From positions 1 to 47,877 of IMG/VR virus record IMGVR_UViG_3300038441_001742: 47,877 nucleotides of DNA; one strand, given 5' to 3'. The translations under genes and the position numbers were made by a program. Position 1 is the first letter of the stretch. Every line of letters starts with the position of its first letter. This document shows, piece by piece, positions 4,614-46,473 of this stretch. The notes beneath the pieces are model-generated. The model saw only the letters and a program-made list of their open reading frames with translations. It had not been told where the DNA came from and ran no database searches. This DNA comes from a virus.

Positions 4614-4616
4614 CCT

Positions 4617-6591: not shown

Positions 6592-6700
6592 TCACGTTCC
6601 ACTTCAGTTTACTTTTTGTGAATCCTGCGACGAATCAATTCGAGCCGACCGACAATTCTGCCCCTACTGCGGAAGTCGGAACCTCCGTGTTCGACGTTGA
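6515..6700 (+). CDS. hidden zinc-ribbon reading frame
   Basis: A frame different from both neighbours encodes FCESCDESIRADRQFCPYCG followed by SRNLRVRR and a stop at 6700. This is an almost perfect zinc ribbon: C-x2-C, ten residues, F-C-x2-C-G. The only ATG in frame is at 6515, inside the cell-wall enzyme gene, giving 61 residues with an odd Ser/Thr/Pro-rich N-terminus. Alternatively the domain could be reached by a +1 shift at the GGT-TAA end of the previous gene, or start at a rare codon. Its end overlaps an alternative GTG start of the large terminase (6687) by 14 bp, like other overlaps in this genome. Real coding is likely; the start is unresolved. Confidence 0.45.
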   Translation: MQPKNDTGTSSHTPCSTKKTSPPSVNHVPLQFTFCESCDESIRADRQFCPYCGSRNLRVRR

Positions 6701-18153: not shown

Positions 18154-21100
18154 ATGCCTCTTCCGTATAAATCCGTCCGAGAGCTCTACGACACGCTCTA
18201 TCGTGCCGGCGTCACCAAGGCCCCTTTATCGGAGTGGGCTGCCGCAATGAACGAAAACACTGGAACGACTAATTATCAGTCCGGCGTCAACGATAATTTC
18301 ATTAAGCGTGCGAGTTATGGTATTGATTCCCTGTTGGAGGCGACAGGACTGCCAGACGCTGGGGCGGCTCTCGGACGGAACGTGGGAGAATGGGTGGGAG
18401 ACGGCGAAGCCGGAGCGGAAATTGGAAGAAGTTTGCCAAGAAGTTTGGTGAACTTCGCTCCGTTGGCGTTGTCCGCGATTCCGGGAGTTGGAGCTCCAGT
18501 GGGACTGGGCTTGAGTGGATTGTTGGCTGGTGCTGATGCATACACGCAAACGGATTCCCCGTTGAGCGGTATCTTGTCTGGTGGCATCACCGCTGCTATG
18601 CCAGGGGCAGCGAGGTTCGGTGAGCAAGCTGCTCTGCGGTTACTGCAAGGGGAAGGCGGACGAATTGCGGGGAACATTCTAACGAAGGGCGGATTCCAAG
18701 GGGTTAATGAGTTTATCCCACGAACCATTAGCGAAGGGCTAATCTCCCAGGGCGCTGGACAAGCAACTGCCTCCGTCCTCGGTGAAGGCCAGCGTATGCT
18801 GGAGGCAGGACTCAGCGACGACGTTGATTACGACTTCTCGCCAACACGGGCATTGCTCGAGATGACTCTTGGCCAAGCGCCGTTCGCAGGAATGTATGCT
18901 TTGCGGGGAGGCAGGGAACAACTCGGTGGAGCCGCGTCCCAGGCAAGACGGTCCTCGTTGCAAGCGGATATCGAACGGACGAAAACAAATCTCGCGTTGG
19001 CGGACGCCAAAAAGGAGTTGGATAATACTCCTCCTGTTGCTAAGCCACCGCCACAATCGGACGCGTTGACGAAGGCAAAGACGGAAAAACTCCTCTTAGA
19101 TATTCAGAATCGCGTTACGTCGAATGATGCTCGTATCGACGCGTTGCGCAAAGAAGCCACGCCTGAAGCGTTGGACGAGTTGTCGCGCCTGGAGCGTGAG
19201 GACGATGCGATGTCGTTCGACGAAGGCTATCGCAGGGCACTGGAGGAAAACGGAGTCGAAGAAGTTTACAACCGTTCGTTGGATTCTATTCGCAAACGGA
19301 AGGGCATCGATCCTGAGTTGAATCCGGAGTTGCCCGTTGGACCTGAAGTCATTCCCGACCTTGTGCATCAGCGGAAGTTCAAAGAGGCTCAAGACCGCAT
19401 TACGAACGCCAAATCCACGAAAGACCTCGCAGACGCGTTTGATGACGCGAATCAGGTTCTGGAGAGACTTGGTATGACGAAGATTCAGCGGAGCACTATC
19501 GAGGCGAAAAGAAAAGAACTCGAAGGAAACGCGACTCCGCCGACCGAAGGTGAGATTGCTATGGCGGTGGTTAATGACGCCAAGAATCAGTCGACGAATC
19601 AGTTAAAAGTTTTGCGGGACAAGGGCGTTAAACGAGAGGAAGCGCGACAGTTCGTTCAGGCACAAGAAGCCGAAGTTAAGTCGATGCTTGATGAAGACAA
19701 CGAACTTATTCCGGGGTCCAATGAGTCGTTGGTCGCGGAGATGAACAATCTCAACGGATTGAAAGAAGCCTTCGCGAACCAAGGTGGACGTGCTAGCCAA
19801 CTGGTCGAAACTGGCGAAGTCGATCGGATTTATTTGGACTGGGTGAATGACGGACGCAAGGGGGGATTTGATACAGTTCGGACGCGGTTGCTTGAAGCCC
19901 GGCGGACTGGAGCAGGGTTGCCAGGGAGGATTCAGAAGTCGGATTTGGAAAACGTCGTTAAGGATTATACGGCTCAAGACGAGTTGCAGAATTATACTGA
20001 ACTTGCAGAAGAGTATGGATTCTTGAGCGAGTGGGAACTTGCGATTAAAAATAAGGATAAAAAGGCGATCGTGCAGTTGATGAATGAGATCGACCTTGCG
20101 GAGAAGGAAGCAGTTGCTCCAGCGCCCAGCAACGTCGGCGGAGGATTCACTTGGAGTTTAGTGGACTACAATCCAACAATGAACAAGCTGGGCAAACACA
20201 CGTTGCCGAAGACGGGATTGTTAAAGGTTAGCCAGTTTAAGAACATGGCGAACCGGGATAACGCTGGCCCGGTGCCAGACGCGGAAGTTGATTTCATGAG
20301 GGAAGTGGTGCCTGAGGCGTTTGAGGGGGAGAATATTAATGTTCCGGTATTGTTCAAGGGGCTTGAGGAAAAGGGTCCGGTGGTGGAGGTGAAGAAGTTG
20401 GGGGGAACACCTGACCCTAAAGTTTCTACGTTAGAATCACAACGGCTTCTACACGAACTAGATACTAGGTTTCCTGGATGGCAAGAACGAAATGATATTG
20501 AGCGTTCTCCTGCTGAAATGGACCTGGTTTCAGCCTATGAAGACGCCTGGAACCAAGGTGAAGCTAATCGCGGTGCTACTAATCGTTCCCGCTACTCCTT
20601 CCTCGGTCCCAAATCCGAACAGGATATGCCGGGGTATGTTGAGGGGTTGGTGAGGTTGCCTGACGCTAACGTTGACTTAGGGGGTGGTGTTAAAACAGAT
20701 ACAGCTTATACAGGACCGCACTTTGGAAGTGAAGACAAAAACGTCCTCGCGTTCTTCCGTGGATACGAAGAGACGTTGCCCTCGGGCGAAAAGGCGTTTC
20801 ATGTTATTGAGGTTCAGAGTGATTGGGGACAAGACGCACGTAAGAGCGGCACTTCAGAAAATAACGGACGCGCCCAAATTACTTACGGTATCACTGAAGG
20901 ACATCCTCTCCTCCGCGTCTACGAGTCCCTCGCACTCAAAGCCGCGATCAATCACGCCAAGGAAATCGGTGCGACGAAGTTGATTCTGTCGGACGGGGAA
21001 ACGGCGATGATGACGGAGGGGCATGATAAGGTTGCTCGAATGACGATCACCGGAGACGAACTTCGTAATTACGGTCTTGAAAATTTAGTTGATAAGTTGC

Positions 21101-24100
21101 CTAAAACTGGCGACGGTGGTTATTATCTTACACCTGAAATTGCTGCACAATACGGCATCGAAACAAAGGGTCGGCTCGAACCCTCCCAATCCGCCGGAAT
21201 GCGTCTCCACTACGACCAAACCTTGCCTTCTGCGTTGAAGAAGCTGACGGGAGTGGAAGGAGAGAGGGTGGAGTTGGGGAATCATAAGTCGGCTATTGAA
21301 GTAGGGAATCCGCGTCGAGTAGACCTTGACTTATTTAACGAAGGAAACGGAGCGGAAATTCCAGTTTCTCCGGATCGCCTTGTTGGCTCCCCCGTATTCC
21401 GCAATCCTGACGGCACGCCGAAATCCTCTATCACCGGCCGCGCCTACGACATCTCATCTCTTCCCCGTCGCGACGCACAAGGGGGCGACTTCACCTTGGG
21501 AGGACGTGCTGCTGCTCCTCGTGGACGCCGGAACATCACTCCGTTCGTTCCTACCGACGACACTGGCGCGGCCTGGGTCCAAAGCGTTGGGGACTCCGGC
21601 GTGTCGTTGTATAATCGACTTCTTGCCTCGACTGATCCGGCGATTGCCAAAGTCATGCCTAGGCTTCAGTCGTTCATGGACGCTATCGAGCGCATCGGAG
21701 TTCAGCACATTGAAGGACGATCGGAGACCCATGGACTTGGAGGTAATGTCACCGTTCGGTTGAACGCCGCTCTTCGTAACGCTAGTCCTTGGGCAGCCGA
21801 TAAAGAGATGGCTCACGAATTGTTGCACGGGATTACTCTGCACGAACTGCATCGGCCTACAAACGCGGAACACGTTGTCACGTTGGGTAAGTTGAGGGAA
21901 CGCGTAGCACAGTCGTTGCCGAAACCGTTAAAAGACGTGCTCAACAAAGCCGTCGACAACGAATGGTATTCCGGCTGGGCGAACGGAACGAAAACCTGGG
22001 GCGAATTGTTCGACGGAACGAAGACAACCAAGGACGATCAAAACCTAATCTACGGGCTTCTCAATAATGACGAGTTCATTAGTCAAGCGTATTCCGACTC
22101 CTCGATGCAGGAGTTCCTTACGAACCAGAAAGGCAAAGCGAAGAACTTTAAAGATGAGTTTGTCGATTGGGTAAAGGGGTTGTTGGGCATGAAGGGGCAA
22201 ACCGCCCTTGATGAATTCTTCCAAACCTCGGATCGAATTCTTACTTCCGCGAATGACGCAGCGAAAATCATGACCTACGGGGAGAAGTATCTTGAACGTC
22301 AGGGAACGCTCCCGCTTGTGGCGAGGAATCAATCGGAACGAGCCCTTGGCTTGATGTTGTCGATACAAAAAGGTGCGAAGGGCCAGGAGGTTTTGGACCT
22401 TCTTTCTGCTCAACATACGATTAGTCCCGCCTACGTGCGTGCGAAGCAGCAAATGGTTTCGCATTTCATGCAATTAGACAACGATACTGTGCTCTCTGGT
22501 CGTGTCCTCGAAGAAACCGGCTTCCAGCCAAGTCCTGAAGGGGTTGACGATTTCGTTAATTCGACGATCCTTGGCGACGTGCCGAACTATGAGTTCGCTA
22601 TGGATTTGTTCCCTGAGCCTGTGGCGAATTATATTATCGCGAAGAATCACGATTATCGACAGGTCCTGGACGTAGCTGCTGCGAGCACTAGAAAGGAAGT
22701 TTCACAGTTGTTAGGAATGGACGACGTGAGCGGAGTGCATAATACGACACGGGAGACACTTGCCGGACTGAAAAAGCTTCAACAGTTTACTACGCAGCAT
22801 TTGCAGAACGTAAAGGACGTTCAAGCGTTGAGCACGTTGCCAGTCCCAGATTCGTTTCTTGACGACGCGGTGGTTCCTGCGCCGTTCATGCAGGCTGTTG
22901 ATGGCGTTGGAGAAAGTGCTAAGCACGCAGGAAATTGGGTCGAATGGTTCCTGCGGACTCCAGCGGATTACGCTCGGACTAATCCAGTCCTCGGTGAGTT
23001 CTTTTCGAAAGGTTATCAGTTGCAGTCGAATGCCCGCAAGTTCTATAGCGAAGCAGTCCGAATCCTAGGGGAAGACTTGACAACGGGCAAGGCCACCAAA
23101 GAAGCCGTTGACGAGTCGAATAAGGTCTTGTCTAACAAGAAGTTGCTAACTGCTACAAACAAGTGGCTCGCTGCAAACCAGTTCGCAGCGAAGCAAGGCA
23201 AGACGGGAGTTAGCACTTTGATGTCGACTGATGCCCGAGTGCAGGGAATCTTGAAAGGACTAACGCCAGAGGAAGTTTCGTTAGTCGGAAACATGGTCGC
23301 TCGTGCGCAGGGGATTACGCAGAACGTCCACGCGTCTAGCCTGGAGAAAATGGAGCAAATTGCGGTTACGCGAGGAGCGGTAATTCCATTGCGCGATGGA
23401 ACCGTGAAGACGGTGGACCAGGCGACGAAGTTGTCTGAAGCTGTGTTTCAGGCCATTGGTGCAGATCGCACTGACCCTGCCGCCGCAATGAAAGCGGATC
23501 AGCAATTGGCGTGGGCTCGTGGGGAAATGAGCCCACAGGCGTTCTTGAATTTGCTGGAGTTTCAACAAAAGCAAGTTGCAAACTACGGAGATTACGCTTC
23601 GTGGTATGAGCAGAATCCTGCATGGGTAACGGCCCAAAGACAGGAGAAATATTTGGTGCGGTTTAAAGAGGGCAAGCGCATTAAGAACCTTCAGGCATCG
23701 AGTCGTAAGGAAGCGATGGAAATCGTTAAAGATCACAAAGGAGAATTGATTGCTATTGAAGATAACTTCAAAGGAGGCGACGACGAATTTCCGGCGCTTG
23801 GTCCAGAAGCTGACGCGTTGATGGCAAAGTTGAATGAGCGCCAGGAGAGTGGTATTCAGATGATGTTGGCGAACGGGTATATTAACGAAGCAGGAGCTGA
23901 GTACATGCGCAATACGGCAGGTGTTGCTACACAGTTTGGTCGGGAAGCCGGAGCCCAGGGAAATATTCCGAACTTTCAACCGCCAGCTAGAAATTTGTCA
24001 CAAGGGGCAGAGGACTTGCCGTTCATGTGGAACCACATGTCGTGGGCGGAACGCCAAGCGAACTATTGGACAAGGGCGCTATTTAGGGCACAAGCGGACC

Positions 24101-25932
24101 TGCATTTACAAGACCCAACGATCAACGCAAATGAAAAGTATCGCGAGTTGGTGAAGACCCATAAGGATAATTTGTTGCAGCGTGATCCTGGGCTTGCGCA
24201 GAAACTGCAACGGTTTACGACTACATGGTTCATGGGGTTTGCGCCCGCGAGTGCGATGGTAAATGCAACGCAGAGCTTTGTTACACACGTGGCAGAATTG
24301 ACCGCCATGACCGGGAGCCCGATCCAATCGTATAAACAGGTAGCCGGTGCGTTCGGACGGCTGATCGACTATTATAAAGGCGGCCGGAAGTGGAGTAATC
24401 CAGATCACGAATGGCTAATGCACGAGGCGACGAAAGCTGGGGAACGTAGTTATTCGATGTATGATGACGAAGCTGCGGCTCAGGAGTCAATCGCGACGAA
24501 TACCAAACGGTTGATGATGAAGACGAAACCGCAAACAGCAGGCCAGCGAGCTGGTGGGTTGTTCGATGGGGTTCAGAAAGCTTCGATGATGATGTTTAAG
24601 GGCATCGAACGGTTGAATAACGACGCGGCGTTGTTGGCCGGCTTTGACCACTATCGGGAACAAGGGTTGCCTAGAGAAGAAGCGTTGGCAAAGGCGTTTG
24701 AGTTCAACCACGCGGTGAACTTTGGTGGGGGACGGGCCAACCGACCGATTGGTATTTTCTCTGGCCGAGGAGATACCTTGCGAACCGCGGGGATGTTCGC
24801 CACTGCGTTGCAGAGCTATGTGCTTGGAACCACGTGGCAGCTGACGAGGTATATCAAGCAAGGGTTCTTTCAGCCAGAAGGACTAACTCCACATCAGAAG
24901 TGGGCGAGTCGTAAGGCTGCAATGCAGATGCTGGGAACGCAGTTCGCGTTAGCTGGGACGTTGGGGCTGCCGTTCGTTAGTGGTGCGATTGCCGTTCTTG
25001 AACAAGCGTTCCCAGACCTGGAAATCAATAAGAACATGCGAGAGCTGTTTGCAGGGCTGATGGGCGAAGACGACGAAAACGGCAGCGTCATGCAAGATAT
25101 CGCCATGACGGGAATCCCTTCTATGATGGGGTGGGATTTGCAGAGTAGGTTGTCGATGGGAAATACACTGCCGGGAACAAGCGAAATCAACGGGTTTCAA
25201 CCGCAACAGTTGGCTGGCCCTACGCCAAACCTTATTGCGAACTTTGTCCAAGGGGGATTAAAAACTTTGCAAGGGCAGATGCCGTGGGAGTTTATCCCGC
25301 CGGGCGCCCGCAAGCTTGCTAAAGACGCGGTGAATGGAGGCCAAAAAGACTGGAAGGGCCGACCGCTGACAGGAGGGCTTACGCCGACGGAGCAGGTAGG
25401 GGTGACGTTAGGATTTAATCCGAAACGGGTGAGTGATTTTAACGCTGCAAGCCGCATCGCAACCCGGGCCGACGAAATCCACAATCGCCGCGAAGGGCAG
25501 TGGAGGCAACAGCAGGCAACGGAAATCCTCAAAGGCAACTTCGGGAATGTTCGCTCTGCGTTGCAGGAACGAGCACAAAACGAGAAGGACTTTGATGTCC
25601 GTCAAGCAGTGCGCTCAATCACGCAGGCGAGCGAGGAGCTCACGTATCCTAGAGACCTCCGCAACGAGGGAGGGAAAGGCCGCGATTCGCGGTTGATGAG
25701 CCTCTTTAACTTGGCCCAAACTGGGCCGACTGAGGAGGAGAGACTACGGTTCAGAATGCTCGTTAGCCAACGGCTGGGATTGCCCACGGGGTTGAACCGA
25801 GGGGACGTCCAGCGGGCGCAGCTAATGGACAGACTGAAAGCTGAGAAACCAGACGCAACGAGAAGCGAACTTCGCAGAGCTGTTCAAATCAGCCTTCGGG
25901 GTTCTTCAGCTTCTTTAGAGTCTCTTGACTAG
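18154..25932 (+). CDS. giant polyvalent internal virion protein (2592 aa)
   Basis: This multi-domain protein is probably packaged in the head and injected, as for large polyvalent proteins of podoviruses and mobile elements. A Gly/Ala-rich hydrophobic stretch (about 100-150) may touch membranes. Residues about 850-1030 hold a domain with HVIEVQSDWGQ (883-893), LALKAAINHAKEIG and LHYDQTLP, the EIQSDW-type module of such proteins. A zinc-metallopeptidase motif HELLH is at 1221-1225. Residues about 2020-2130 (FMGFAPASAMVNATQSFVTH) resemble LPD38-like regions, and 2263-2286 is hydrophobic. Leucine codon use shifts abruptly across 20400-21560. Its last 44 bp overlap the oppositely directed ATPase gene. 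Confidence 0.75.
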   Translation: MPLPYKSVRELYDTLYRAGVTKAPLSEWAAAMNENTGTTNYQSGVNDNFIKRASYGIDSLLEATGLPDAGAALGRNVGEWVGDGEAGAEIGRSLPRSLVNFAPLALSAIPGVGAPVGLGLSGLLAGADAYTQTDSPLSGILSGGITAAMPGAARFGEQAALRLLQGEGGRIAGNILTKGGFQGVNEFIPRTISEGLISQGAGQATASVLGEGQRMLEAGLSDDVDYDFSPTRALLEMTLGQAPFAGMYALRGGREQLGGAASQARRSSLQADIERTKTNLALADAKKELDNTPPVAKPPPQSDALTKAKTEKLLLDIQNRVTSNDARIDALRKEATPEALDELSRLEREDDAMSFDEGYRRALEENGVEEVYNRSLDSIRKRKGIDPELNPELPVGPEVIPDLVHQRKFKEAQDRITNAKSTKDLADAFDDANQVLERLGMTKIQRSTIEAKRKELEGNATPPTEGEIAMAVVNDAKNQSTNQLKVLRDKGVKREEARQFVQAQEAEVKSMLDEDNELIPGSNESLVAEMNNLNGLKEAFANQGGRASQLVETGEVDRIYLDWVNDGRKGGFDTVRTRLLEARRTGAGLPGRIQKSDLENVVKDYTAQDELQNYTELAEEYGFLSEWELAIKNKDKKAIVQLMNEIDLAEKEAVAPAPSNVGGGFTWSLVDYNPTMNKLGKHTLPKTGLLKVSQFKNMANRDNAGPVPDAEVDFMREVVPEAFEGENINVPVLFKGLEEKGPVVEVKKLGGTPDPKVSTLESQRLLHELDTRFPGWQERNDIERSPAEMDLVSAYEDAWNQGEANRGATNRSRYSFLGPKSEQDMPGYVEGLVRLPDANVDLGGGVKTDTAYTGPHFGSEDKNVLAFFRGYEETLPSGEKAFHVIEVQSDWGQDARKSGTSENNGRAQITYGITEGHPLLRVYESLALKAAINHAKEIGATKLILSDGETAMMTEGHDKVARMTITGDELRNYGLENLVDKLPKTGDGGYYLTPEIAAQYGIETKGRLEPSQSAGMRLHYDQTLPSALKKLTGVEGERVELGNHKSAIEVGNPRRVDLDLFNEGNGAEIPVSPDRLVGSPVFRNPDGTPKSSITGRAYDISSLPRRDAQGGDFTLGGRAAAPRGRRNITPFVPTDDTGAAWVQSVGDSGVSLYNRLLASTDPAIAKVMPRLQSFMDAIERIGVQHIEGRSETHGLGGNVTVRLNAALRNASPWAADKEMAHELLHGITLHELHRPTNAEHVVTLGKLRERVAQSLPKPLKDVLNKAVDNEWYSGWANGTKTWGELFDGTKTTKDDQNLIYGLLNNDEFISQAYSDSSMQEFLTNQKGKAKNFKDEFVDWVKGLLGMKGQTALDEFFQTSDRILTSANDAAKIMTYGEKYLERQGTLPLVARNQSERALGLMLSIQKGAKGQEVLDLLSAQHTISPAYVRAKQQMVSHFMQLDNDTVLSGRVLEETGFQPSPEGVDDFVNSTILGDVPNYEFAMDLFPEPVANYIIAKNHDYRQVLDVAAASTRKEVSQLLGMDDVSGVHNTTRETLAGLKKLQQFTTQHLQNVKDVQALSTLPVPDSFLDDAVVPAPFMQAVDGVGESAKHAGNWVEWFLRTPADYARTNPVLGEFFSKGYQLQSNARKFYSEAVRILGEDLTTGKATKEAVDESNKVLSNKKLLTATNKWLAANQFAAKQGKTGVSTLMSTDARVQGILKGLTPEEVSLVGNMVARAQGITQNVHASSLEKMEQIAVTRGAVIPLRDGTVKTVDQATKLSEAVFQAIGADRTDPAAAMKADQQLAWARGEMSPQAFLNLLEFQQKQVANYGDYASWYEQNPAWVTAQRQEKYLVRFKEGKRIKNLQASSRKEAMEIVKDHKGELIAIEDNFKGGDDEFPALGPEADALMAKLNERQESGIQMMLANGYINEAGAEYMRNTAGVATQFGREAGAQGNIPNFQPPARNLSQGAEDLPFMWNHMSWAERQANYWTRALFRAQADLHLQDPTINANEKYRELVKTHKDNLLQRDPGLAQKLQRFTTTWFMGFAPASAMVNATQSFVTHVAELTAMTGSPIQSYKQVAGAFGRLIDYYKGGRKWSNPDHEWLMHEATKAGERSYSMYDDEAAAQESIATNTKRLMMKTKPQTAGQRAGGLFDGVQKASMMMFKGIERLNNDAALLAGFDHYREQGLPREEALAKAFEFNHAVNFGGGRANRPIGIFSGRGDTLRTAGMFATALQSYVLGTTWQLTRYIKQGFFQPEGLTPHQKWASRKAAMQMLGTQFALAGTLGLPFVSGAIAVLEQAFPDLEINKNMRELFAGLMGEDDENGSVMQDIAMTGIPSMMGWDLQSRLSMGNTLPGTSEINGFQPQQLAGPTPNLIANFVQGGLKTLQGQMPWEFIPPGARKLAKDAVNGGQKDWKGRPLTGGLTPTEQVGVTLGFNPKRVSDFNAASRIATRADEIHNRREGQWRQQQATEILKGNFGNVRSALQERAQNEKDFDVRQAVRSITQASEELTYPRDLRNEGGKGRDSRLMSLFNLAQTGPTEEERLRFRMLVSQRLGLPTGLNRGDVQRAQLMDRLKAEKPDATRSELRRAVQISLRGSSASLESLD
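25713..25727. repeat. GGCCCA-N3-TGGGCC palindrome 3
   Basis: Perfect copy (spacer AAC) near the 3' end of the giant gene, encoding AQTGP. Confidence 0.85.
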
Positions 25933-29191: not shown

Positions 29192-31810
29192 TTAAATTTT
29201 GTTTGTTGTTTCTTTCCAGTTTTGCCCCCATCCGCCGTCGAATGGAATTTTAATTTTGATTCCGGCGATGATGAGTTCGTTGTTAAAATATGCCCTGATT
29301 TTTTCCTTTGCCCAGTCTCGACGATACTGTGGCCACTGACCGCACAGTGCATCATGGATCTGATGCAGCGGCTCAATGACCAAGCTTCCATTACTCCGCC
29401 GATTTTCAGGGTCGTTCCACAAGTTAAGCATCGCCATGTTTGTCGCCCAGGTAGTATTGGCTTGCGGCTCGTGGGCGAGGAACTCTTTGAGCGTGTCATG
29501 AAGACGCTGCCCGGAGCGTCCGCCAAAGAATACTCGGACCTGTCCGGAGGCAGCAGTAAGGATGCCTTTAGCAATGATGGTTGCTTCGGCCCACGCGTGC
29601 CAGGCTTTAACTCCGTGGTAGCGAATGAAGTAGAGGTCTTGAAGGGTTTTCGCGTCGCCATAAGCAAGGTAGATCGGGGTTCCGGATTCTTTGTAGGAGT
29701 CCCTGAGGACGTTCAACTGCATGGTTGGGATGCCCATGAGGTAGTTGGAGCCATGTTGCACACGTTTGCAACCCATATAAAGCCACTTACCGACGATCTT
29801 TTGGACTACGGGAAAGACGTTGTCGTGAAGCCATTTGAGGTCGGAACGGGAGAGGGTGTTAATGACAGGGCCGAAGTAGTAAAGTAGGGCGATGATCTTC
29901 GCAGGTTTCATGCCAGCGAGATAATCGTCTAGCATGGTCGAGTCACCTAGTCGGGCACAATGCGCAGCAACAGTCCAGCCGTCGGCGCCTTCGAGGTCGG
30001 CTTGGAAGAAATCGAACCCGGGGTTTGCTCCATAAAGAACTCGCAAATCTTTTTGAATTGTTTGAAGGTTAGCTCCTGATCCCGTCGGAGATGTATAACA
30101 CTTGACTCGTCCAGTTTCAGCTTCAAGAGAGTAGCCGCATCGCACTCGACCGTCAGAGTCGCAGTCAATTGCAAGGGTCTCGCGGATGCCTTCGAGGTGT
30201 CGATGCAATAGGACATCCGTAAGAAACTGATCGTCGGGGAATTGCTTTTTGAGGGCGAGGAGGGCTTCGACGTCGGAGGTGAGCTTGTCCGTTTTGCGGC
30301 CGTTTTCTTTTTTGTATTGGGGAGGATAGCGGAACGACGCGGTGTTTTCCCCGAGGTAGAGGGAACGGTTGAGGCGTTGAGAAGAGATCGAACCTTTTTG
30401 GCCCCTAATGTCAAAGCCCGCGAAAGCTGTGAGTCGTTCAGCAACTGGGACAATTTCCCCTTTGTTAACCGCTTGCAATTCTTTTTGTTTTTCTTTGTCA
30501 TACGCAATGCCTCGGAGTTCCATAAAAAGAAACGGCTTCTGAAGCTCGATCATTTTACGGTAGTGAATATTGGCGGGACGATATTCAGGTTCGTTTTCGA
30601 GAATGCCTAAATGGGCTTGAGAGATTTCCGCGGTTACGCAGCAGTCGATTCCACAACCGCGGGCGAGTCCTACTCCATCGGATTCGTACATGGAATCGTC
30701 TTTCCAGTGCGGTTCGCGGGTGTAGATTGAGGCTTGAGTGGACAGTCCGCGGGGGAGTTCTGAGTAAACTTCCCAGCCGGAGATCATGGTATCGTCGGAG
30801 ACGTTTCGGATGGGGATACGGTAGCCGTAGGTGAGGACGAAGTTGTCGTAGAGTTGGTTTTGGAGGACCTTGGGGACATCGAGGCGATCCATAAGGCGAG
30901 CGAAAGCACGAAGAACACGGCAATGATCGTCAACTGAAAAAGTATTCCAACGAATAACATAGGCCTTTCCCGGACGTGCGCTAATGCCAACGCAAGGCCA
31001 GCCATAGGTGCGGCGTTGGTCCTTCGGTTTCTTTTTGTTTCGGATGACTTCATCTGGATGTACAAGGTTAATGGGTAGTCCACCTTCGATGTCCATGTAG
31101 CATTTTTGACCAGCGGGCCAAGAGTCTAGGACGTAGCAGAGAACAGACGCTGTAGCATTTGTGATGATTTCTCGCTTAGGTAGGACGAGGTCTTTGGATC
31201 GTCCTTCTTCTGCCGCTCGTTTAAGATCGAATTGGAACAACGGAAGTCCGGAATATTCACGTAGAATATAGGCTGGGTGTAGCGAAGAAATGCACTTAAC
31301 CCCATGCCATGCGCCACAAACGGAGGACCGAAAAAGACTACCTCTCCAGGCCGAGATAGAGTTCGGATATTTATACCCGGCTTTGTCGACCTTCGGGACG
31401 TAGTTCCGTTCGCATTTGAGGACATGAAGAGGAGTCCCGCCGAGAGCAAGGATAAGGTTGGGCTTGAAGATCGACAGGTCATGGGAAAGCTGCGTTATTC
31501 CGTTTTGAATTTCGTCCCCGAGCCAAGAGAAATACGGGAGGCGGTTGCCTGGGGGACGGACTTGGCAGACGTTGCCAACGAAGCATTTGTCACGGGAGAT
31601 TCCGACGGAATGCAGGACGTTGTTGAGGAGTTGTCCGGAGACGCCAGCGAATGGTTGGTTATAGTTTTCTTCGGTCTCGCCAGGGGCTTCGCCTACAATG
31701 GCGATTCGATATTCGTCAGGTTCAATGATTGGTTGGAAGTTGGGAACATGGCGACGTTCGTAGACGATGGACGGAGCAGGAGGAGAACCTCCTCCTTGCC
31801 CAAAGTTCAT
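29192..31810 (-). CDS. uracil-DNA glycosylase/DNA polymerase A fusion
   Basis: This is a replicative polymerase with an N-terminal glycosylase-like domain. Residues about 35-215 carry the UDG family-4/5 signature GEAPGETEE (40-48), PFAGVSGQLL and SLHPAYILR (about 176-184). Exonuclease motifs follow: DIEG (about 240), NQLYDNF and GIDCCVTAEI. The polymerase domain has motif A ADLEGADGWTVA (near 605), a B-like CKRVQHGSNYLMG and motif C HQIHDAL (near 816). The glutamate of motif A is Asp, and the second acid of motif C (HDE) is Ala, so catalytic efficiency or sugar selection may be changed. The start at 31810 (MNFGQGG) overlaps the upstream stop by ATGA; 31834 is also possible. Confidence 0.85.
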   Translation of the reverse strand: MNFGQGGGSPPAPSIVYERRHVPNFQPIIEPDEYRIAIVGEAPGETEENYNQPFAGVSGQLLNNVLHSVGISRDKCFVGNVCQVRPPGNRLPYFSWLGDEIQNGITQLSHDLSIFKPNLILALGGTPLHVLKCERNYVPKVDKAGYKYPNSISAWRGSLFRSSVCGAWHGVKCISSLHPAYILREYSGLPLFQFDLKRAAEEGRSKDLVLPKREIITNATASVLCYVLDSWPAGQKCYMDIEGGLPINLVHPDEVIRNKKKPKDQRRTYGWPCVGISARPGKAYVIRWNTFSVDDHCRVLRAFARLMDRLDVPKVLQNQLYDNFVLTYGYRIPIRNVSDDTMISGWEVYSELPRGLSTQASIYTREPHWKDDSMYESDGVGLARGCGIDCCVTAEISQAHLGILENEPEYRPANIHYRKMIELQKPFLFMELRGIAYDKEKQKELQAVNKGEIVPVAERLTAFAGFDIRGQKGSISSQRLNRSLYLGENTASFRYPPQYKKENGRKTDKLTSDVEALLALKKQFPDDQFLTDVLLHRHLEGIRETLAIDCDSDGRVRCGYSLEAETGRVKCYTSPTGSGANLQTIQKDLRVLYGANPGFDFFQADLEGADGWTVAAHCARLGDSTMLDDYLAGMKPAKIIALLYYFGPVINTLSRSDLKWLHDNVFPVVQKIVGKWLYMGCKRVQHGSNYLMGIPTMQLNVLRDSYKESGTPIYLAYGDAKTLQDLYFIRYHGVKAWHAWAEATIIAKGILTAASGQVRVFFGGRSGQRLHDTLKEFLAHEPQANTTWATNMAMLNLWNDPENRRSNGSLVIEPLHQIHDALCGQWPQYRRDWAKEKIRAYFNNELIIAGIKIKIPFDGGWGQNWKETTNKI

Positions 31811-32043
31811 TTCTTTTTGTTCTGGCGTTTCCAAAGTAACGTGCGAATTTCGTGTTGATGATAGGGGTTAATAGCAGACAGAAGATCGTATCGAACCGGA
31901 TCGGAGCGGAGGTCCGAGTCTAGGTAGCGAAGCGCGTAGGAGAACGAAAGATCACGGTTGAGATAGATGTGATAGATGTCGTCGAAGCGCTCGTCAACGT
32001 AGTCGATCTTAAGTAAACTGTATGGGTCGTTTGAGGATGTCAC
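31807..32043 (-). CDS. hypothetical protein (78 aa)
   Basis: The 78-residue product is acidic and helical with a basic tail (LLWKRQNKKK), rich in Tyr and Asp. It starts at a GTG within the last 35 bp of the methyltransferase gene, in another frame. It ends overlapping the preferred polymerase start. No family recognised. The overlaps at both ends argue it is real. Confidence 0.55.
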   Translation of the reverse strand: MTSSNDPYSLLKIDYVDERFDDIYHIYLNRDLSFSYALRYLDSDLRSDPVRYDLLSAINPYHQHEIRTLLWKRQNKKK

Positions 32044-33439
32044 GGTAGCCGGTTTGCAGGTTAATGATTAGGCGACCGTAGTGGTCGGGTTGGATTTCAC
32101 AACCAGAGGGACGAAGCTGACATTGAGCGGCAGCGATGGCAGCGGAACCGGAGCCGACACACGGGTCGAAGACGGTTTGGTTCGGCGTCGCGATAGCGCG
32201 ATAGATGAAACGCCAAAGGGAAAACGGTTTCGCGAATGGGTGATTGAGGTCGCGGACGACGGAACCGGTGGGGCCAACGAATATAGAGGACATCTGCGGA
32301 GAGACAAGGGTTGCGTTGGCCTTGCGACAAACCATTGCGTATTCGATGTTCTTGCAGAAGTTGTAGGCAGGAGCAGCGTTGGAACGGTAGTCGGCTTTGT
32401 GCCAGATGAGGGGCCAGCGTTGCACGGAGAAGCCAGCAGCGGTCGCGATCGATTGGAGCTTCTCGTGATGGTCGAGGTCGTAGAAAAACACGAAGAAGCC
32501 ATTGGGTTTGACGGCGCGATAGGCCGCAGGAATCAAGCGGCGGAGGTCCGCAAGGGAGTCGGCAACAGAAGCTTGAGCTACCCCGGTGGATGCGTTGGCG
32601 ATGGACGCAAGAAGTCGGTCGACGTCGACGCCGTAGTCAGGATCAGTGACGATATGGTCGAATGAACCTTCGGGGCAAGATTCCATGAAGTCGATGCCGG
32701 AGCAGTTGTGAAAAGCAGAAGAAAGGTTGATGACGACGGGAGGAACTTCGACGGAAGGATCGTCCTCAGTGGGCTCAGAGTGGGCCGAGTCGATAGGGCG
32801 AGGAGCTGACGCAGGAGTGTCACGCAAGGAAACTTCGGCGAGGGCGATCAACGCGTCGGCTTGCTTTTGTTTAAGCATGAAGGAATAAGCGTGTCGAAGA
32901 CCGGTGCACTGAGCGTAGCGGTCAGGGTTCGCCATGAAGTCGTAATAAATGGCGTTAGCCGCTTGGAGGTCGGCGTAGGTTACGCCTAGGGTGGCGCCAA
33001 ACTGACGCATAAGAAGAACCTCACCGCGTTGGCCAGCTTCAATTTGTGCGTATTTCCAGGCCTCGACCATGAGGGAAAGTTCATCCCTCCAGTCGACGTC
33101 TTCACGGTGGAGATTCTCCGCGATCTCGGTGATGAGGGAATTGAAGTTGGAATTGTGGAGTTCGTTAACGAGGAGGTAGCCTGCCTTGCCGGGTTCGCGG
33201 GTAATGCCGTGATGGAATTCGGTAATGCTCGCGAACTCAGTTGAAGCGCGAAAACGGCGACCACCAGCCCATAGTTTGTAGGTGCCGTTGCCGGACGAAA
33301 TGAGGGTAATCGGGTTGATGAGACCGACTTCGAGGATTTCGGAGGCGAGTGAGTCGAGGTTTTTGTAACCGCCGAACTGGCGGGAGATACGTTCACCGAG
33401 AACGATGGAGGACGCGGGAATGACGGGTGGTGGGGTCAT
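32009..33439 (-). CDS. ParB-like domain fused to DNA methyltransferase
   Basis: The first 130 residues resemble a ParB N-terminal domain: EILEVGLINPITLI, LWAGGRRFRA and EIAENLHREDVDW. The rest is a beta-class DNA methyltransferase with the catalytic motif IVTDPDYGV (about 262-270, a DPPY variant) and the AdoMet-binding motif FDPCVGSGSA (about 423-432), in the order IV then I. Such fusions occur in phages and may modify host or phage DNA at sites chosen with help from the ParB part. A one-mismatch palindrome falls in the linker. The final codons overlap the next gene by 35 bp. Confidence 0.8.
   Translation of the reverse strand: MTPPPVIPASSIVLGERISRQFGGYKNLDSLASEILEVGLINPITLISSGNGTYKLWAGGRRFRASTEFASITEFHHGITREPGKAGYLLVNELHNSNFNSLITEIAENLHREDVDWRDELSLMVEAWKYAQIEAGQRGEVLLMRQFGATLGVTYADLQAANAIYYDFMANPDRYAQCTGLRHAYSFMLKQKQADALIALAEVSLRDTPASAPRPIDSAHSEPTEDDPSVEVPPVVINLSSAFHNCSGIDFMESCPEGSFDHIVTDPDYGVDVDRLLASIANASTGVAQASVADSLADLRRLIPAAYRAVKPNGFFVFFYDLDHHEKLQSIATAAGFSVQRWPLIWHKADYRSNAAPAYNFCKNIEYAMVCRKANATLVSPQMSSIFVGPTGSVVRDLNHPFAKPFSLWRFIYRAIATPNQTVFDPCVGSGSAAIAAAQCQLRPSGCEIQPDHYGRLIINLQTGYRDILKRPIQFT
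32772..32786. repeat. GGCCCA-N3-TGGGCC palindrome, one mismatch
   Basis: GGCTCAGAGTGGGCC on plus, in the linker of the ParB/methyltransferase gene, encoding AHSEP on the minus strand. Confidence 0.55.
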
Positions 33440-41742: not shown

Positions 41743-42176
41743 ACTCCACAAAGGGTTAAGAGTTCGTCAGGGAAGAGGGTGAGGATTTCGTCAAGTTCAG
41801 CATAGAGGGCGTGGTATTTTTTAGGCATGAATGCCTCCCACTCTGAAACTCCCATTTCACACGCAATAGCAGCTTGCTCGGCGTAAGCTTCGTGCAACGT
41901 CAAGAGTTCATCGCGTTTTGTGACTAAAGAATTGAGGTGGACTTTCCCCATCTTCACCAACGGCACGATGATGTTGCGGTTGAGGGCGATGAAGGAGGCG
42001 TCTTCTTCGCACATTAGTGACCCGAGATACTGGCTCTGTCCCTCGCTCCATAATTCGTAAAACGGATATTCAGTATCGACGGTAGATGCCCACCGTTCCA
42101 TTGTCGCCATCTTCTCCATCTCTTCAACCTTGGCGAACAGGTTGCGAATGCGGGTGAGGTGTTCGGCGGTGGTCAT
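41739..42176 (-). CDS. hypothetical helical protein (145 aa)
   Basis: The 145-residue acidic protein is almost all helical (TAEHLTRIRNLFAKVEEMEK ... VTKRDELLTLHEAYAEQAAI) with a Met/Trp-rich core. No catalytic or metal motif. Its ATG overlaps the stop of the ABA-sandwich-like gene by four bases. Function unknown. Confidence 0.6.
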   Translation of the reverse strand: MTTAEHLTRIRNLFAKVEEMEKMATMERWASTVDTEYPFYELWSEGQSQYLGSLMCEEDASFIALNRNIIVPLVKMGKVHLNSLVTKRDELLTLHEAYAEQAAIACEMGVSEWEAFMPKKYHALYAELDEILTLFPDELLTLCGV

Positions 42177-42520
42177 TTCGTGTCGTCCCAGAGGTTGAGG
42201 GTTCGGAGAAAGGCTTCGGCGCGTTGGGAGGCAGCAATGTGGACTATTGAACTATCACAACAAACGTGAAGATATCCTTCGTATTCTAACGCCATGTTGG
42301 AGTAAGGTCCATATTTATAGATGCACACTTTCTCCGCCTCGTGCATGGCGTTGAGGTCGGAGAGGTAGTTGGGAAGGATTCGTCGTGCGTGGACGTCATT
42401 TAAGTCTCCTTCGTGACTTGGCGGAATCCCAGTAGGGGCGTTGTTCCACAGGCTAGTGCTGTATACGCCACGCCACCCACACGCTTCAGCAATCGCAATT
42501 CGTTGTGCTTCGGGAGTCAT
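42173..42520 (-). CDS. phage ABA-sandwich-like protein (115 aa)
   Basis: The start TPEAQRIAIAEACGWRGVYS, the central LPNYLSDLNAMHEAEK and the end SQRAEAFLRTLNLWDD match the pattern of small phage ABA-sandwich proteins, widespread in phages and of unknown function. The middle carries three cysteines (VCIY, HVCCD). ATGA overlaps with both neighbours show operon membership. Confidence 0.6.
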   Translation of the reverse strand: MTPEAQRIAIAEACGWRGVYSTSLWNNAPTGIPPSHEGDLNDVHARRILPNYLSDLNAMHEAEKVCIYKYGPYSNMALEYEGYLHVCCDSSIVHIAASQRAEAFLRTLNLWDDTK

Positions 42521-42684: not shown

Positions 42685-42980
42685 AGCAGTGGGATGTAGG
42701 CTGCGAGGCAAAGGCCGACGATGCGAGCGTCGAAGGAGTCGATTTGGTAGTTTTTGTAGCAATCTCCGTAGCCCCAGTAAAGAGGAGAGCGGCCAAGGAC
42801 GTAGGAATCCGGCGTTTCCCCGAAAAGGTTTTCGAAGTGCGTAAGGTAAGGGTCAGCAGAGACGTTGTGAACACATGCGGCTATTCTAATGGCTATGCAG
42901 CCATAGTGATAAAGCTCGTCTTCGACTAGCCGTGCGGCGTGAAGAAACACGGCTTTTTGTTTTGGGAGTTTTTGTCTCAT
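42681..42980 (-). CDS. hypothetical protein (99 aa)
   Basis: The 99-residue protein is Tyr/Cys/Leu-rich with a helical N-terminus (KQKAVFLHAARLVEDELYHY) and a hydrophobic end (DARIVGLCLAAYIPLL). It may associate with membranes. Four-base overlaps occur at both ends. No family recognised. Confidence 0.55.
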   Translation of the reverse strand: MRQKLPKQKAVFLHAARLVEDELYHYGCIAIRIAACVHNVSADPYLTHFENLFGETPDSYVLGRSPLYWGYGDCYKNYQIDSFDARIVGLCLAAYIPLL

Positions 42981-43096
42981 AGCGAGAGGACCAGGATTAC
43001 GAGACCACAGAGGAACATAATGAGGTGGAAGGGAGGAATGAACGAAAAAAGAATAATCACCAATCCGGTGATGATCGAGAAGCCGTTAGTTTTCAT
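42977..43096 (-). CDS. 39-aa membrane microprotein
   Basis: A 39-codon frame encodes MKTNGFSIITGLVIILFSFI, a short Pro-Pro-Phe-His turn and LIMFLCGLVILVLSL: two hydrophobic segments joined by a tight turn. It overlaps the C-terminal helicase gene by 11 bp and the next gene by ATGA, so it fits the operon exactly. A hairpin-type membrane peptide could affect the envelope during infection. No annotation is possible by family. Confidence 0.6.
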   Translation of the reverse strand: MKTNGFSIITGLVIILFSFIPPFHLIMFLCGLVILVLSL

Positions 43097-43703
43097 AAAT
43101 GAAATCGTCGGAATTGATATACGTCAGGTTTTCTTTTGCACGAGTGGCGGCAACGTAGTGCAGGTTGATTTCTTGCTGGCGTTGCCAAGCGTTGCTGGCG
43201 AACTTGCCGATAAGGAATTGGTCGAGAATGAAGACATTCGTCCATTCAAGGCCTTTGGCCTTATGGATTGTTGAAAGAACGATGCCGTTGGGCTGAACGG
43301 TAAACAGCTTTTCGATAAGAAGCGGCACTTCAGTCGGCCCAAACTGGGCCTTGTTTGCGAAGAGTAGGAGACAGTCGGCGCGATCGCGAACGCTGGCGGC
43401 ACGTGCTACGCGGTTCGAAGAGAGAAATTTCGTTGTTTCTTTTTCGCACCACGAGCGAATGGCTACGCGGAGCGCGGGAAGATCAGGCGACTTGAAGGTT
43501 TTTACCTGGGTGATCAGTTGTTGCGCCACGTCCCGCCCGAGAATATAACACGGACGGGACGCACGGAGTAGTTGAAACGCGGTGGAGACTAGTGGGGCGT
43601 TGGTCCGGCAAAGGACTGCGGAGCCGGAGGGAATGTCGTCCGGGGTCCAGGAGATCGCGTGCCGAACGGAGCCCAGCGGTGCTGTTGGCGAAGGAAGGAT
43701 CAT
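43086..43703 (-). CDS. SF1 (UvrD-like) helicase, C-terminal half
   Basis: The 205-residue protein has helicase motifs V and VI only: VLSTIHKAKGLEWTNVFIL (about 141-159) and YVAATRAKENLTYI (about 184-197), preceded by the motif-IVa-like SAVLCRTNAPLVST. It lacks Walker A and B, which are encoded 1.3 kb upstream in 44986-45849. Together the two products would make one complete UvrD-type domain pair. Four unrelated genes lie between. The N-terminus (MILPSPTAPLGS) looks like a new start rather than a cut domain. A perfect palindrome lies inside at 43336-43350. Confidence 0.75.
   Translation of the reverse strand: MILPSPTAPLGSVRHAISWTPDDIPSGSAVLCRTNAPLVSTAFQLLRASRPCYILGRDVAQQLITQVKTFKSPDLPALRVAIRSWCEKETTKFLSSNRVARAASVRDRADCLLLFANKAQFGPTEVPLLIEKLFTVQPNGIVLSTIHKAKGLEWTNVFILDQFLIGKFASNAWQRQQEINLHYVAATRAKENLTYINSDDFIYEN
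43336..43350. repeat. GGCCCA-N3-TGGGCC palindrome 5
   Basis: Perfect copy (spacer AAC on plus) inside the C-terminal helicase gene, encoding AQFGP on the minus strand. Confidence 0.85.
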
Positions 43704-43717
43704 GACGAAAGGAGGGC

Positions 43718-44362
43718 TCAGCTCAGGTTGAGGTTTTTCTTCGCCTCAGCGAGTTTTTCGACGACATCGAGGGAGAAGGTCTGACAGCCGACTTTGATGC
43801 CGGAAGCAGAGACGACGGCGGAATAGCTGGCGTTGAGAGGGACGACTTCTTCGGTGGGAATAGACCAAGTGGTGAGGAGACGCAGGAACTCTTCGAAGGA
43901 GAGTTTAACCGCATCGACGGATTCCCAAAATGCGCGAGAGCTATAGTCGAGGCGGAACCTAGAGGATGCAATGCCGACTGCGTCGGTCAGACTCTCGCGA
44001 AACCCATAGCATACATTTAACTTCAACGCTTCCGCGAAGGCTTTGATTGCTGCAAGTTGAGCGGGAGTTTCGATTTCGGTGTAGCAGGGAAACGGGGACG
44101 TTGGAAGGTAGCTTTTACGAGGGAGGCCAACGTAGTTGTACATGATGTTGATGAACTCGTTGAAGCTGACTTCAGGGTAACCTTGCTCCTGATAGTATTC
44201 GAGGCTGCTACCGTCGATTCGTGGGCGTGCGGGGTTTGCGTCGTCGAACCCCACTGTGGCGGCGGTTCTATTTGGAACGTTCATGGCCCCGGTGATTCCA
44301 ACTTGCCGCATGTGGAACTCCAACTCGGGATATTGTTTTTTAGTGATTCTTGTGAATTTCAT
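43718..44362 (-). CDS. hypothetical protein (214 aa)
   Basis: The 214-residue protein mixes an N-terminal KFTRITKKQYPELEFHM, a YPEVSFNEFINIMYNYVGLP stretch and a C-terminal domain with SFEEFLRLLTTWSIPTEEVV. The two FxEF segments look like an internal repeat of one short domain. It is one of four genes separating the two helicase halves. No nuclease or homing motif is visible. Function unknown. Confidence 0.6.
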   Translation of the reverse strand: MKFTRITKKQYPELEFHMRQVGITGAMNVPNRTAATVGFDDANPARPRIDGSSLEYYQEQGYPEVSFNEFINIMYNYVGLPRKSYLPTSPFPCYTEIETPAQLAAIKAFAEALKLNVCYGFRESLTDAVGIASSRFRLDYSSRAFWESVDAVKLSFEEFLRLLTTWSIPTEEVVPLNASYSAVVSASGIKVGCQTFSLDVVEKLAEAKKNLNLS

Positions 44363-44487
44363 TTTGTTTTGGAATTTGTTTTCGTGAGTTTTTCTTGTAT
44401 TTGCTTAACTTCTTCGCGGATCATGTCCCGTGTTTTGCGGGTGATCGGCTGAAAGATTACTTTGCGCTGCTGATTGTTATTCGGCAT
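44359..44487 (-). CDS. small basic protein (42 aa)
   Basis: From ATG 44487 the frame gives MPNNNQQRKVIFQPITRKTR and a Lys/Glu-rich helix (REEVKQIQEKLTK). It overlaps the upstream gene by 11 bp and the downstream gene by ATGA. The longer 44580 start is inside the upstream gene and was rejected. Unknown function; possibly a DNA-binding peptide. Confidence 0.5.
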   Translation of the reverse strand: MPNNNQQRKVIFQPITRKTRDMIREEVKQIQEKLTKTNSKTK

Positions 44488-44755
44488 CGGGGAGAACTTC
44501 GCGGAACAGTGCGCAGTGAGGGCAGGTTTGCCAGTTAGTGGGAGGAGTAGCGAAGGCAGTGACATAAAAGCCCTCGTCATGAATTACATACTCGCGTGGC
44601 ACACGAGGAGGTTTGACGCGATAGTCGTTTTCAACGAAGTTGAATATAGGGTTAAGAACCTCCCACCAGGGATTGTTCGTCCCGTGGTCCCTGAATTCAA
44701 TCATTTTCCCGGCTTTCGCGGCCTCCAACACGGCGATCTTTTCGTCGATAGTCAT
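44477..44755 (-). CDS. small conserved-type phage protein (92 aa)
   Basis: The protein starts TIDEKIAVLEAAKAGKMIEF, has a central WWEVLNPIFNFVENDYRVKP and ends in CPHC. The pattern of an initial helix followed by a W...N...DYRVKPP segment is common in small phage proteins annotated only as conserved. The CPHC pair may bind a metal but lacks partners. It lies in the helicase-splitting segment. Confidence 0.6.
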   Translation of the reverse strand: MTIDEKIAVLEAAKAGKMIEFRDHGTNNPWWEVLNPIFNFVENDYRVKPPRVPREYVIHDEGFYVTAFATPPTNWQTCPHCALFREVLPDAE

Positions 44756-44756
44756 G

Positions 44757-44939
44757 TTATTTCGCCTCCGGGTTGAACAGAGGATCGTTCGGGTTCAGGT
44801 GCCGACTCCTCAGTTGCTCGGCAATTGCCTCGGGCGTCTTTTTCATTTGCCAACGCGGCACCAGTTGGCTGTTGTTCGGGGTGCCGACGTCGATGAGGAG
44901 GTTGCGATTGCGTTTACGGTGGTATTTTTTCAGTTGCAT
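44757..44939 (-). CDS. small hypothetical protein (60 aa)
   Basis: The 60 residues have a very basic start (QLKKYHRKRNRN) and a helical tail (TPEAIAEQLRSRHLNP). One base separates its stop from the next gene. It is the first of the four genes between the helicase halves. Function unknown; a nucleic-acid-binding peptide would fit the composition. Confidence 0.55.
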   Translation of the reverse strand: MQLKKYHRKRNRNLLIDVGTPNNSQLVPRWQMKKTPEAIAEQLRSRHLNPNDPLFNPEAK

Positions 44940-44985
44940 AATAGTGGTTGGTTAAAAGGGAGACTGTTATGGAGGATGAAATACG

Positions 44986-45849
44986 TTAGTTGATTGTTAT
45001 TCTAGGCTCCGTCGCTGCGCTGTTCTGTCCTAAGATGCGTTGGGCTTCTTTCACCACAGCGTGGCTGCACCGATAGCTAACGCTCAACGGCAGCTCTTTC
45101 GCGGAGAACATCTCTGCTAACTTCTTCATGCCGTCCACGTGCGCGCCACGGAACCCATAAATGGCTTGGTTCGGATCACCAACGGCAATCAGCCGTCCGT
45201 TGGGCTTGAGCATCCGAGTCAAGAGCTCATGCTGAATTCCACTTAAATCCTGGGCTTCGTCGACGAAGATCATGTCCGCCAACGATTTAAAGGGAACATT
45301 CAGCTGATAAGTCAGCCAGAGCATATCGTCGAAGTCGACCCTCGAAGTATCCGCTAACGAGAGTTTAAGTAGTTCTCCTGCGATTTCGAATGAGTCCTCC
45401 GGCGGATCGTCAAGATCATGATGATCCACGATTGCCCCGAAATCCACGTTCATTGGATTTTCCGTGCTCCCTTTGGCGAAGCTAACTAGCTTATCGACGT
45501 ATGGGAAAACCCGCCAAAAGTCTTTGTCGCTTAACAGTTCGTTATCCTTCGCGAGTTGTTTTGTTTTCGCCGCGTCGATGCGCACGCGAGGGAACATCTT
45601 CTTCAGCGCGTCCAAGCATGCGCTGTGGAACGTGCTAACAACCACGAAGTAGGGCATTCCGATTTTTAACTCCTCCGCGATGCTCTTGCTGAAGGCCAAA
45701 AATTTATACAACCCTCCGGGGCGTAGCTCCTTCGCGGCCATTTTTATCGTTGTCGACTTTCCGCTGCCCGCTGCTGCGTCGATGACGAGGCTTCCGCTTT
45801 CGTTCGCGATGAAATCAAAAATATCTTGTTGGAATTTGCTTGGCGTCAT
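44986..45849 (-). CDS. SF1 (UvrD-like) helicase, N-terminal half
   Basis: This 287-residue protein carries SF1 motifs Q, I, Ia, II, III and IV: FQQDIFDF, AAAGSGKST (25-33), a STFHSACLDA segment, VDEAQD (196-201), VGDPNQAIYGFRGA (about 221-234) and LSVSYRCS. It stops at ITIN just after motif IV. Motifs V and VI are missing and are encoded separately at 43086-43703. It is therefore the ATP-binding half of a split UvrD-type helicase. The ATG at 45849 overlaps the upstream gene by ATGA. Confidence 0.75.
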   Translation of the reverse strand: MTPSKFQQDIFDFIANESGSLVIDAAAGSGKSTTIKMAAKELRPGGLYKFLAFSKSIAEELKIGMPYFVVVSTFHSACLDALKKMFPRVRIDAAKTKQLAKDNELLSDKDFWRVFPYVDKLVSFAKGSTENPMNVDFGAIVDHHDLDDPPEDSFEIAGELLKLSLADTSRVDFDDMLWLTYQLNVPFKSLADMIFVDEAQDLSGIQHELLTRMLKPNGRLIAVGDPNQAIYGFRGAHVDGMKKLAEMFSAKELPLSVSYRCSHAVVKEAQRILGQNSAATEPRITIN

Positions 45850-46133
45850 ACGAATAAAACCAGCTGCTCCGGTTGGCCGAAGCCTCCGGAATGTCTCGCC
45901 TTGATTCCTTGCGTGGGCCAGTTGTTCGGCACCTTCTTTAGCGCCCCAGCAAACGTGAAGCTCACTTCAAGTTGCTCGGCTCTAGACGCAATCTGCGTTG
46001 CGGTTGCCTTTTTCGTCCGCCCTCTCTGGATTCCATATGCGGTTGCAATATATCTCAACTGCTCCCGCGTATACGCGTTCATCAGCCGCTCCACGAGCAT
46101 CCCGCGTTCGGTTATCGTCGGTCTCGTTAGCAT
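45846..46133 (-). CDS. small protein with SAP-like helical motif (95 aa)
   Basis: The 95-residue basic protein contains TREQLRYIATAYGIQRGRTK followed by KATATQIASRAEQ, the pattern of a SAP-like DNA-binding helix pair (helix, GI, basic loop, helix). It then has a basic, aromatic C-terminus. It is coupled by ATGA to the N-terminal helicase half, so it may help recruit it to DNA. The SAP assignment is tentative. Confidence 0.5.
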   Translation of the reverse strand: MLTRPTITERGMLVERLMNAYTREQLRYIATAYGIQRGRTKKATATQIASRAEQLEVSFTFAGALKKVPNNWPTQGIKARHSGGFGQPEQLVLFV

Positions 46134-46134
46134 T

Positions 46135-46473
46135 TTAGTTCTGCCCCACGTAGTCGCGGAGCGCCTTGGTGAAGATTGCGCGATTCACCACCCGGGCCAG
46201 CGCCTGTGGCACGTCGTCGTTGCCCATCGTAACCAGCATCGCCAACATAACCTGGGCTTTGTTGTACCCGAGCAAGACCAAAACATTGATCATCACGGCC
46301 AAATGCAACCCGTCTTCTTGCTTCATCGCCAACGACATGATCGCGAAGGTCAGCCTGCAGTCGAGTTCTTTAAATTCCTCGATAACCTTCTTCGCTGCCT
46401 GTCGACTTCCTTCGTCTTCGATCGCTTGTTCGTAAACCTGGTCTTGACTTTTGCTGTAGTTGATTTCTTTCAT
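46135..46473 (-). CDS. hypothetical helical protein (112 aa)
   Basis: A 112-residue, mostly helical protein (SKSQDQVYEQAIEDEGSRQA, AKKVIEEFKELDCRL) with a Met/Leu/Val-rich amphipathic middle (LAVMINVLVLLGYNKAQVML). No metal or catalytic motif. It begins 16 bp after the last GGCCCA-N3-TGGGCC copy and ends one base before the next gene. Function unknown. Confidence 0.6.
   Translation of the reverse strand: MKEINYSKSQDQVYEQAIEDEGSRQAAKKVIEEFKELDCRLTFAIMSLAMKQEDGLHLAVMINVLVLLGYNKAQVMLAMLVTMGNDDVPQALARVVNRAIFTKALRDYVGQN

Follow-up and report, generated by a model that had tools for sequence, protein, structure and literature searches.

A UvrD-like helicase is encoded by two genes in the window, a 47,877-nt stretch of viral DNA (positions 1 to 47,877 of IMG/VR record IMGVR_UViG_3300038441_001742). 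Comparison with relatives suggests that their products probably form a heterodimeric UvrD/PcrA-type (SF1A) phage helicase, in which two separately translated chains assemble post-translation. The two halves, and the genes lying between these, are as follows.

44986..45849, minus strand: N half, 287 aa; domain 1A and the motif IV unit of domain 2A; PF00580, phrog_1967.
44757..44939, minus strand: gap gene 1, 60 aa; no weighty family match and no homologue in the other split loci.
44477..44755, minus strand: gap gene 2, 92 aa; phrog_21668 (unknown function), E 7.2e-9.
44359..44580, minus strand: gap gene 3; the first ATG would give 73 aa, but the likelier start is the ATG at 44487 (42 aa), which overlaps the stop of gap gene 2.
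43718..44362, minus strand: gap gene 4, 214 aa; no assigned function.
43086..43703, minus strand: C half, 205 aa; rest of domain 2A and a reduced domain 2B; PF13361, phrog_1967.

The first-pass annotation had proposed a UvrD-like helicase in two genes at these positions, and both open reading frames are confirmed by complementary family matches. Pfam UvrD-helicase (PF00580) matches the N half with 90.4 bits (cut-off 23), and UvrD_C (PF13361) matches the C half with 45.3 bits (cut-off 25.6). The best match of both halves is phrog_1967, a phage DNA helicase family (PHROG 1967), and along its 776-column profile they occupy adjacent stretches, the N half columns 151–454 and the C half columns 473–674; this adjacency is far beyond chance. 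Motifs I (AAAGSGKST), II (VDEAQD), III (GDPNQAIYGFRGA) and IV (LSVSYRCS) are found in the N half, and motifs V (STIHKAKGLEW) and VI (YVAATRAK) in the C half, whose first residues are MILPSPTAPLGSV. By domain, the N half holds motifs Q, I, Ia, II and III in 1A, and motif IV in the first strand and helix of 2A. The signature residues of SF1A are present in the N half (Walker A, DEAQD of motif II, GDxxQ..YGFRGA of motif III, YR of motif IV) as well as in the C half (TIHKAKGLEW of motif V, YVAxTRAK of motif VI). Positions that are near-invariant in the fused family are kept at 27 of 27 places in the N half and at 21 of 23 in the C half, where the two missed positions are conservative and lie outside motifs V and VI. 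No catalytic part is missing across the two halves, and the earlier claim of clean motifs with nothing lost stands. SF1A helicases carry all motifs on one polypeptide, whereas here they are found in two open reading frames 1,282 bp apart, and I therefore file this helicase as a split variant, not as a standard UvrD-like SF1A member.

The gap had been described as about 1.3 kb with four small genes devoid of homing or intein motifs, and this is correct: it measures 1,282 bp and holds four small open reading frames (60, 92, 73 and 214 aa), none of which matched an endonuclease or intein model among the Pfam and PHROG profiles. No HNH, GIY-YIG or LAGLIDADG gene is found in the window gap, and the gap gene of another split virus, L006, is a SASA esterase instead. 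This endonuclease scan covered the gap genes of the window, the SASA esterase gene of L006 and a 54-aa gap gene described below, for which no family match exceeded the cut-off. The operon-style overlaps reported earlier hold in part, since the N-half start shares an ATGA overlap with the preceding gene, but a spacer of 46 nt separates the N half from the next gene and 14 nt lie ahead of the C half. A strong ribosome-binding site is absent upstream of the C half, as it is for most of the neighbouring genes. An intron at the break was considered and rejected, as an Rfam search of window positions 42800–46200 gave only a sub-threshold sroB match; an intron or intein was likewise set aside on account of L008, whose break is a 4-nt overlap with no DNA between the halves.

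A fused version of the helicase does exist in related phages. Viral contigs were scanned with the two halves, and the loci obtained were then checked for N and C sharing an open frame. This was the case for 154 of the 166 loci, the remaining ones being contig-edge cases, the window copy L084 (the window itself, not an extra split virus) or truly split. The tree-building set comprised 146 fused proteins, or 93 once near-duplicates were removed, which gives at least 93 distinct fused relatives. In the cultured Pseudomonas phage JG054, the helicase is a single gene, pcrA (KX898400, 53291–54814). The exonuclease marker of the window lineage gave zero matches to cultured phages, and the best terminase matches to these are just 22–24%, so that no cultured relative of the lineage can be named; a scan of genome contigs gave no prophage relatives.

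Together with the window, six further uncultured viruses (L008, L007, L089, L006, L184 and L199) make up seven distinct viruses with the split. Two of these, L184 and L199, were found by using the exonuclease of the same cluster as a marker, and a search with the L006 C half and the C-half start pattern gave no additional distinct split virus. The number of genes between the halves is zero, one, two or four. There are none in L008, where the end of the N half and the start of the C half share a 4-nt ATGA overlap, and one in L007, where a 54-aa gene is flanked by ATGATC at both junctions; the N halves of these two viruses are 98% identical. L089 also has the 54-aa gap gene, and an identical copy of its helicase region comes from a second metagenome (L174). 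The L007 and L089 versions of the gap gene (L007 2319–2483, L089 2548–2712) are 70% identical in protein and 73% in DNA, against about 40% for the flanking halves, and a search for it elsewhere matched no viruses beyond these. It is missing in L008, although this is a close relative of L007; L008 may have lost it between the ATGATC repeats, or else L007 may have acquired it. The L184 gap holds genes of 101 and 71 aa, and that of L199 (identical to L200 across the helicase region) four small genes. L006 is a 7.8-kb fragment that contains the C half, with the SASA-type esterase gene and another gene upstream, and its N half would fall past the contig end.

The first-pass annotation had attributed the split to the four gap genes of the window. 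This is contradicted by the relatives, in which the slot is empty or holds one, two or four other genes; given this varied content, the four window genes did not cause the split. With the exception of the common 54-aa gene, the gap genes of different split viruses show no mutual homology by tblastn. Relatives of the 101-aa gene of L184 are found at other sites, in the window (42173–42520), in L193 and in L181, and gap genes therefore look like ordinary mobile accessory genes.

While the slot varies, the cut point does not. When the halves were added to the alignment of fused proteins, the conserved part of the N halves was found to stop at residue 296–297 of the fused L004 protein, a point past which the N halves of the window and L199 extend by short tails. 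The window tail is 14 aa long (GQNSAATEPRITIN) and absent from most split relatives; that of L199 (N half 4491–5453) is Cys-rich (CPLCGETAQDCVC; CPLCG...CVC) and not seen in other split viruses. Every C half starts at L004 residue 298 with an ATG-ATH of its own, encoding Met-Ile where fused relatives have His-Ile. An AlphaFold2 model of fused L004, obtained with a 50-sequence alignment (pLDDT 94.8), resembles PcrA, UvrD and Rep with Z scores of 23–27, and shows the cut flanked by a helix (286–292) and a strand (309–313). Modeled alone with AlphaFold2, the window C half (pLDDT 95.8) aligns to UvrD 306–617 and PcrA 309–623, corresponding to domain 2A and a reduced 2B, and the window N half aligns to PcrA 20–305. 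The models thus place the cut in a loop inside the RecA-like domain 2A, not at a domain boundary, with the N chain predicted to stop after the first strand-helix unit of 2A, the one with motif IV. With the cut in this loop, the motor would need both chains. In PcrA and UvrD, ATP is lodged between 1A and 2A and contacted by residues of motifs I and II, the motif IV arginine and the motif VI arginine. These contacts are divided over the N chain (I/II, IV) and the C chain (VI), suggesting that the active site needs both as well.

The split viruses have a gene order in common, which includes a GTLPEWQ-type protein, a PD-(D/E)XK exonuclease, a Sak4-like protein, an SSB-like protein, a ParB-methyltransferase and a UDG-PolA, and is missing from the fused loci found with the helicase. 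In a maximum-likelihood tree of four proteins of this common cluster, 7/7 split viruses fall in one group with a support of 100/100; this group also takes in three viruses without a detected helicase, and L193 and L214, two members of the wider lineage whose helicase is fused, fall outside it. In the helicase tree, constraining the split proteins together gave likelihoods 8.3 and 11.7 units above the free quick search, and their grouping was not rejected by the AU test. The quick single-gene helicase tree left L089 and L006 unplaced, and the clade claim therefore rests on the four-gene tree and the AU test. Since the split clade is recovered at 100/100 with the fused L193 and L214 outside, a single old fission, retained since, is the simplest account and the one that best fits the sequences. 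As the cut point is fixed while the gap genes differ, this fission has to predate the present gap genes. Exchange is suggested by L007 (L088) and L008: a block almost exactly spanning the N-half gene (1470–2328 in the former, 885–1741 in the latter) is 96% identical, against 87–89% in the flanks, and dS between the two viruses is 0.08 for N and 0.48 for C. The low N-half dS and the sharp identity block suggest that the N half was exchanged as a unit between relatives of these viruses.

In the window, the ParB-methyltransferase gene (32009–33439) encodes a fusion of a ParB N-terminal domain with an N6/N4 DNA methyltransferase, and is conserved across the lineage. The UDG-PolA gene (29192–31834) encodes an 880-aa protein that combines a uracil-DNA glycosylase domain and a family A DNA polymerase, the latter scoring under the Pfam cut-off. 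Separately, the structural-gene region contains an open reading frame of 2,592 aa (18154–25932), whose product is probably a large virion protein.

The sequences indicate that an ancestral single gene was broken once, in the loop between the first beta-alpha unit of 2A and the rest of 2A, and that a clade of tailed phages inherited this break, with unrelated accessory genes coming and going between the halves. In the model proposed here, 1A, the Walker A and B site, and motif IV with its strand, helix and arginine would come from the N chain, and what is left of 2A, including motifs V and VI, from the C chain. Neither the ATP site nor the DNA groove would exist until the chains have joined into a heterodimer, which is expected to move 3′ to 5′ along single-stranded DNA, as do PcrA, UvrD and Rep. 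The role of the heterodimer would probably be in recombination or replication, beside the Sak4-like protein, the PD-(D/E)XK exonuclease and the PolA of the same cluster. It is conceivable, but rather unlikely, that the break has been kept as useful in itself: holding the chains apart would control assembly, possibly via the products of slot genes, the slot would be a favoured landing place for new phage genes, and the halves could be exchanged separately. The possible role of slot genes in assembly control draws on the 54-aa protein, which is better conserved between L007 and L089 (70%) than are the halves (about 40%).

Alternatively, the two proteins may have taken on separate jobs and form no helicase, with for instance the N half acting as an ATPase or decoy, and the C half as a DNA-binding or regulatory protein. 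The Cys-rich tail gained by the L199 N half would agree with this, as would the apparent exchange of the N half apart from the C half in relatives of L007 and L008. I nevertheless consider it unlikely, because each chain alone has an incomplete second RecA-like domain, and the C chain, which has no Walker motif, still keeps the residues of motifs V and VI that act on ATP. The substituted motif V of the L199 C half (6492–7106), which reads IHRAKGGEW against IHKAKGLEW, does count against the two-chain helicase. Neither half occurs alone among the 22 whole records of the lineage: both parts are present in four (split in two, fused in two), both are absent from 18, and no record has a single half, although whole records may be fragments and few independent losses are represented.

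The same counts bear on the still less likely explanation that this is a decaying pseudogene, that is, a helicase broken by mutation or insertion whose pieces are remnants. Three relatives inside the split clade (L181, L198 and L204) have no detectable helicase half in records of 44–47 kb; the helicase is hence dispensable for some members of the clade, and this loss, like the 14-aa tail of the window N half, is what decay might produce. However, losses take out both pieces together, and in the seven viruses, whose halves are about 37–52% identical to each other (about 37–47% to those of the window), both pieces are open, have a clean ATG and keep the catalytic residues. Near-invariant positions are kept across the split viruses at 23–27 of 26–28 places in N halves and 21–24 of 23–24 in C halves (leaving the window aside, 23–26 of 26–28 and 21–24 of 24), and no inactivating change was found in either half of any split relative. 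Between L007 and L008, dN/dS is far below 1 for each half (0.20 for N, 0.11 for C), for one virus pair with few changes in the N half. A second complete helicase, which might make this one dispensable, was not found either: in the annotated module of the window no second full SF1 helicase is seen, and the replication module has only a DUF3987 primase/helicase-like protein, of a different type. Decay of the helicase is unlikely, and the view that this is a working two-subunit enzyme is supported by the comparative evidence, with a split that persists across deep divergence and both halves kept.

Finally, production of a single chain by frameshifting, ribosome bypassing, RNA splicing or protein splicing is highly improbable, since, although the L008 frames overlap at ATGA and a frameshift is formally possible there, the window halves are 1.3 kb and several stops apart, no Rfam intron and no intein sequence adjoining either half were found, and C halves consistently have an ATG-ATH start of their own at one fixed position.

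A two-chain UvrD/PcrA helicase of this kind offers a natural, evolution-tested split point in its second motor domain, and the fused relatives can serve as controls. It opens to experiment the questions of completing an SF1 motor domain in trans, and of what makes phages tolerate, or favour, replication genes that are broken without a homing endonuclease; the split point could also be used for switchable laboratory helicases.

The closest comparison is to the fused helicases of phrog_1967, such as JG054 pcrA, which have the same motifs in the same order, about 34–42% identity to the halves, the same 2A fold and a reduced 2B, but are one polypeptide of about 480–550 aa, whereas in the window two chains are encoded 1.3 kb apart. 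PcrA, UvrD and Rep have the fold and all motifs in common with the window family, but are single chains with large 1B and 2B domains, in contrast to the reduced 2B and the 2A built from two chains seen here. PcrA has been crystallized in pieces, as the PDB chain lengths of 2PJR (chains A and B) and of the 1QHH fragments correspond to a PcrA fold made of separate pieces; in my reading these arose by proteolysis, and unlike the cut in the window, the nicks are in other loops and not genetically encoded.

Among split phage genes, those of T4-type phages, where genes are split by endonuclease insertion, have been reviewed (PMC2988022). The split NrdA of Aeh1 is an active enzyme, the split gene 43 of Aeromonas phage 25 gives products 43A and 43B, which co-purify and show polymerase activity, gene 43 of Aeromonas phage 44RR is also split, with an untranslated spacer between the parts, and the T4 topoisomerase is split as well (gene 60) (PMC2988022). 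As in these, the coding sequence of the window helicase is broken in place, with both parts kept and, as for Aeh1 nrdA, conserved. Function is demonstrated for split NrdA and gp43. The enzymes are however different (NrdA, gene 43 and topoisomerase there, an SF1 helicase here), and the gaps in the T4-type phages hold homing endonuclease genes or an untranslated spacer, where varying accessory genes and no endonuclease were found here. The catalytic core of PolIII alpha is likewise divided into two proteins in group 2.2 jumbo phages, and predicted to reconstitute (PMC7824862), but this is a polymerase, its genes are far apart in the genome, and the phages are larger than those described here. 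No report of a split UvrD-type or SF1 helicase was found in a literature search of partial coverage, with most subscription journals outside it. The principle of split phage enzymes is thus known; the enzyme, the cut within a RecA-like domain, and the changing gap, in which no endonuclease was found, are new.
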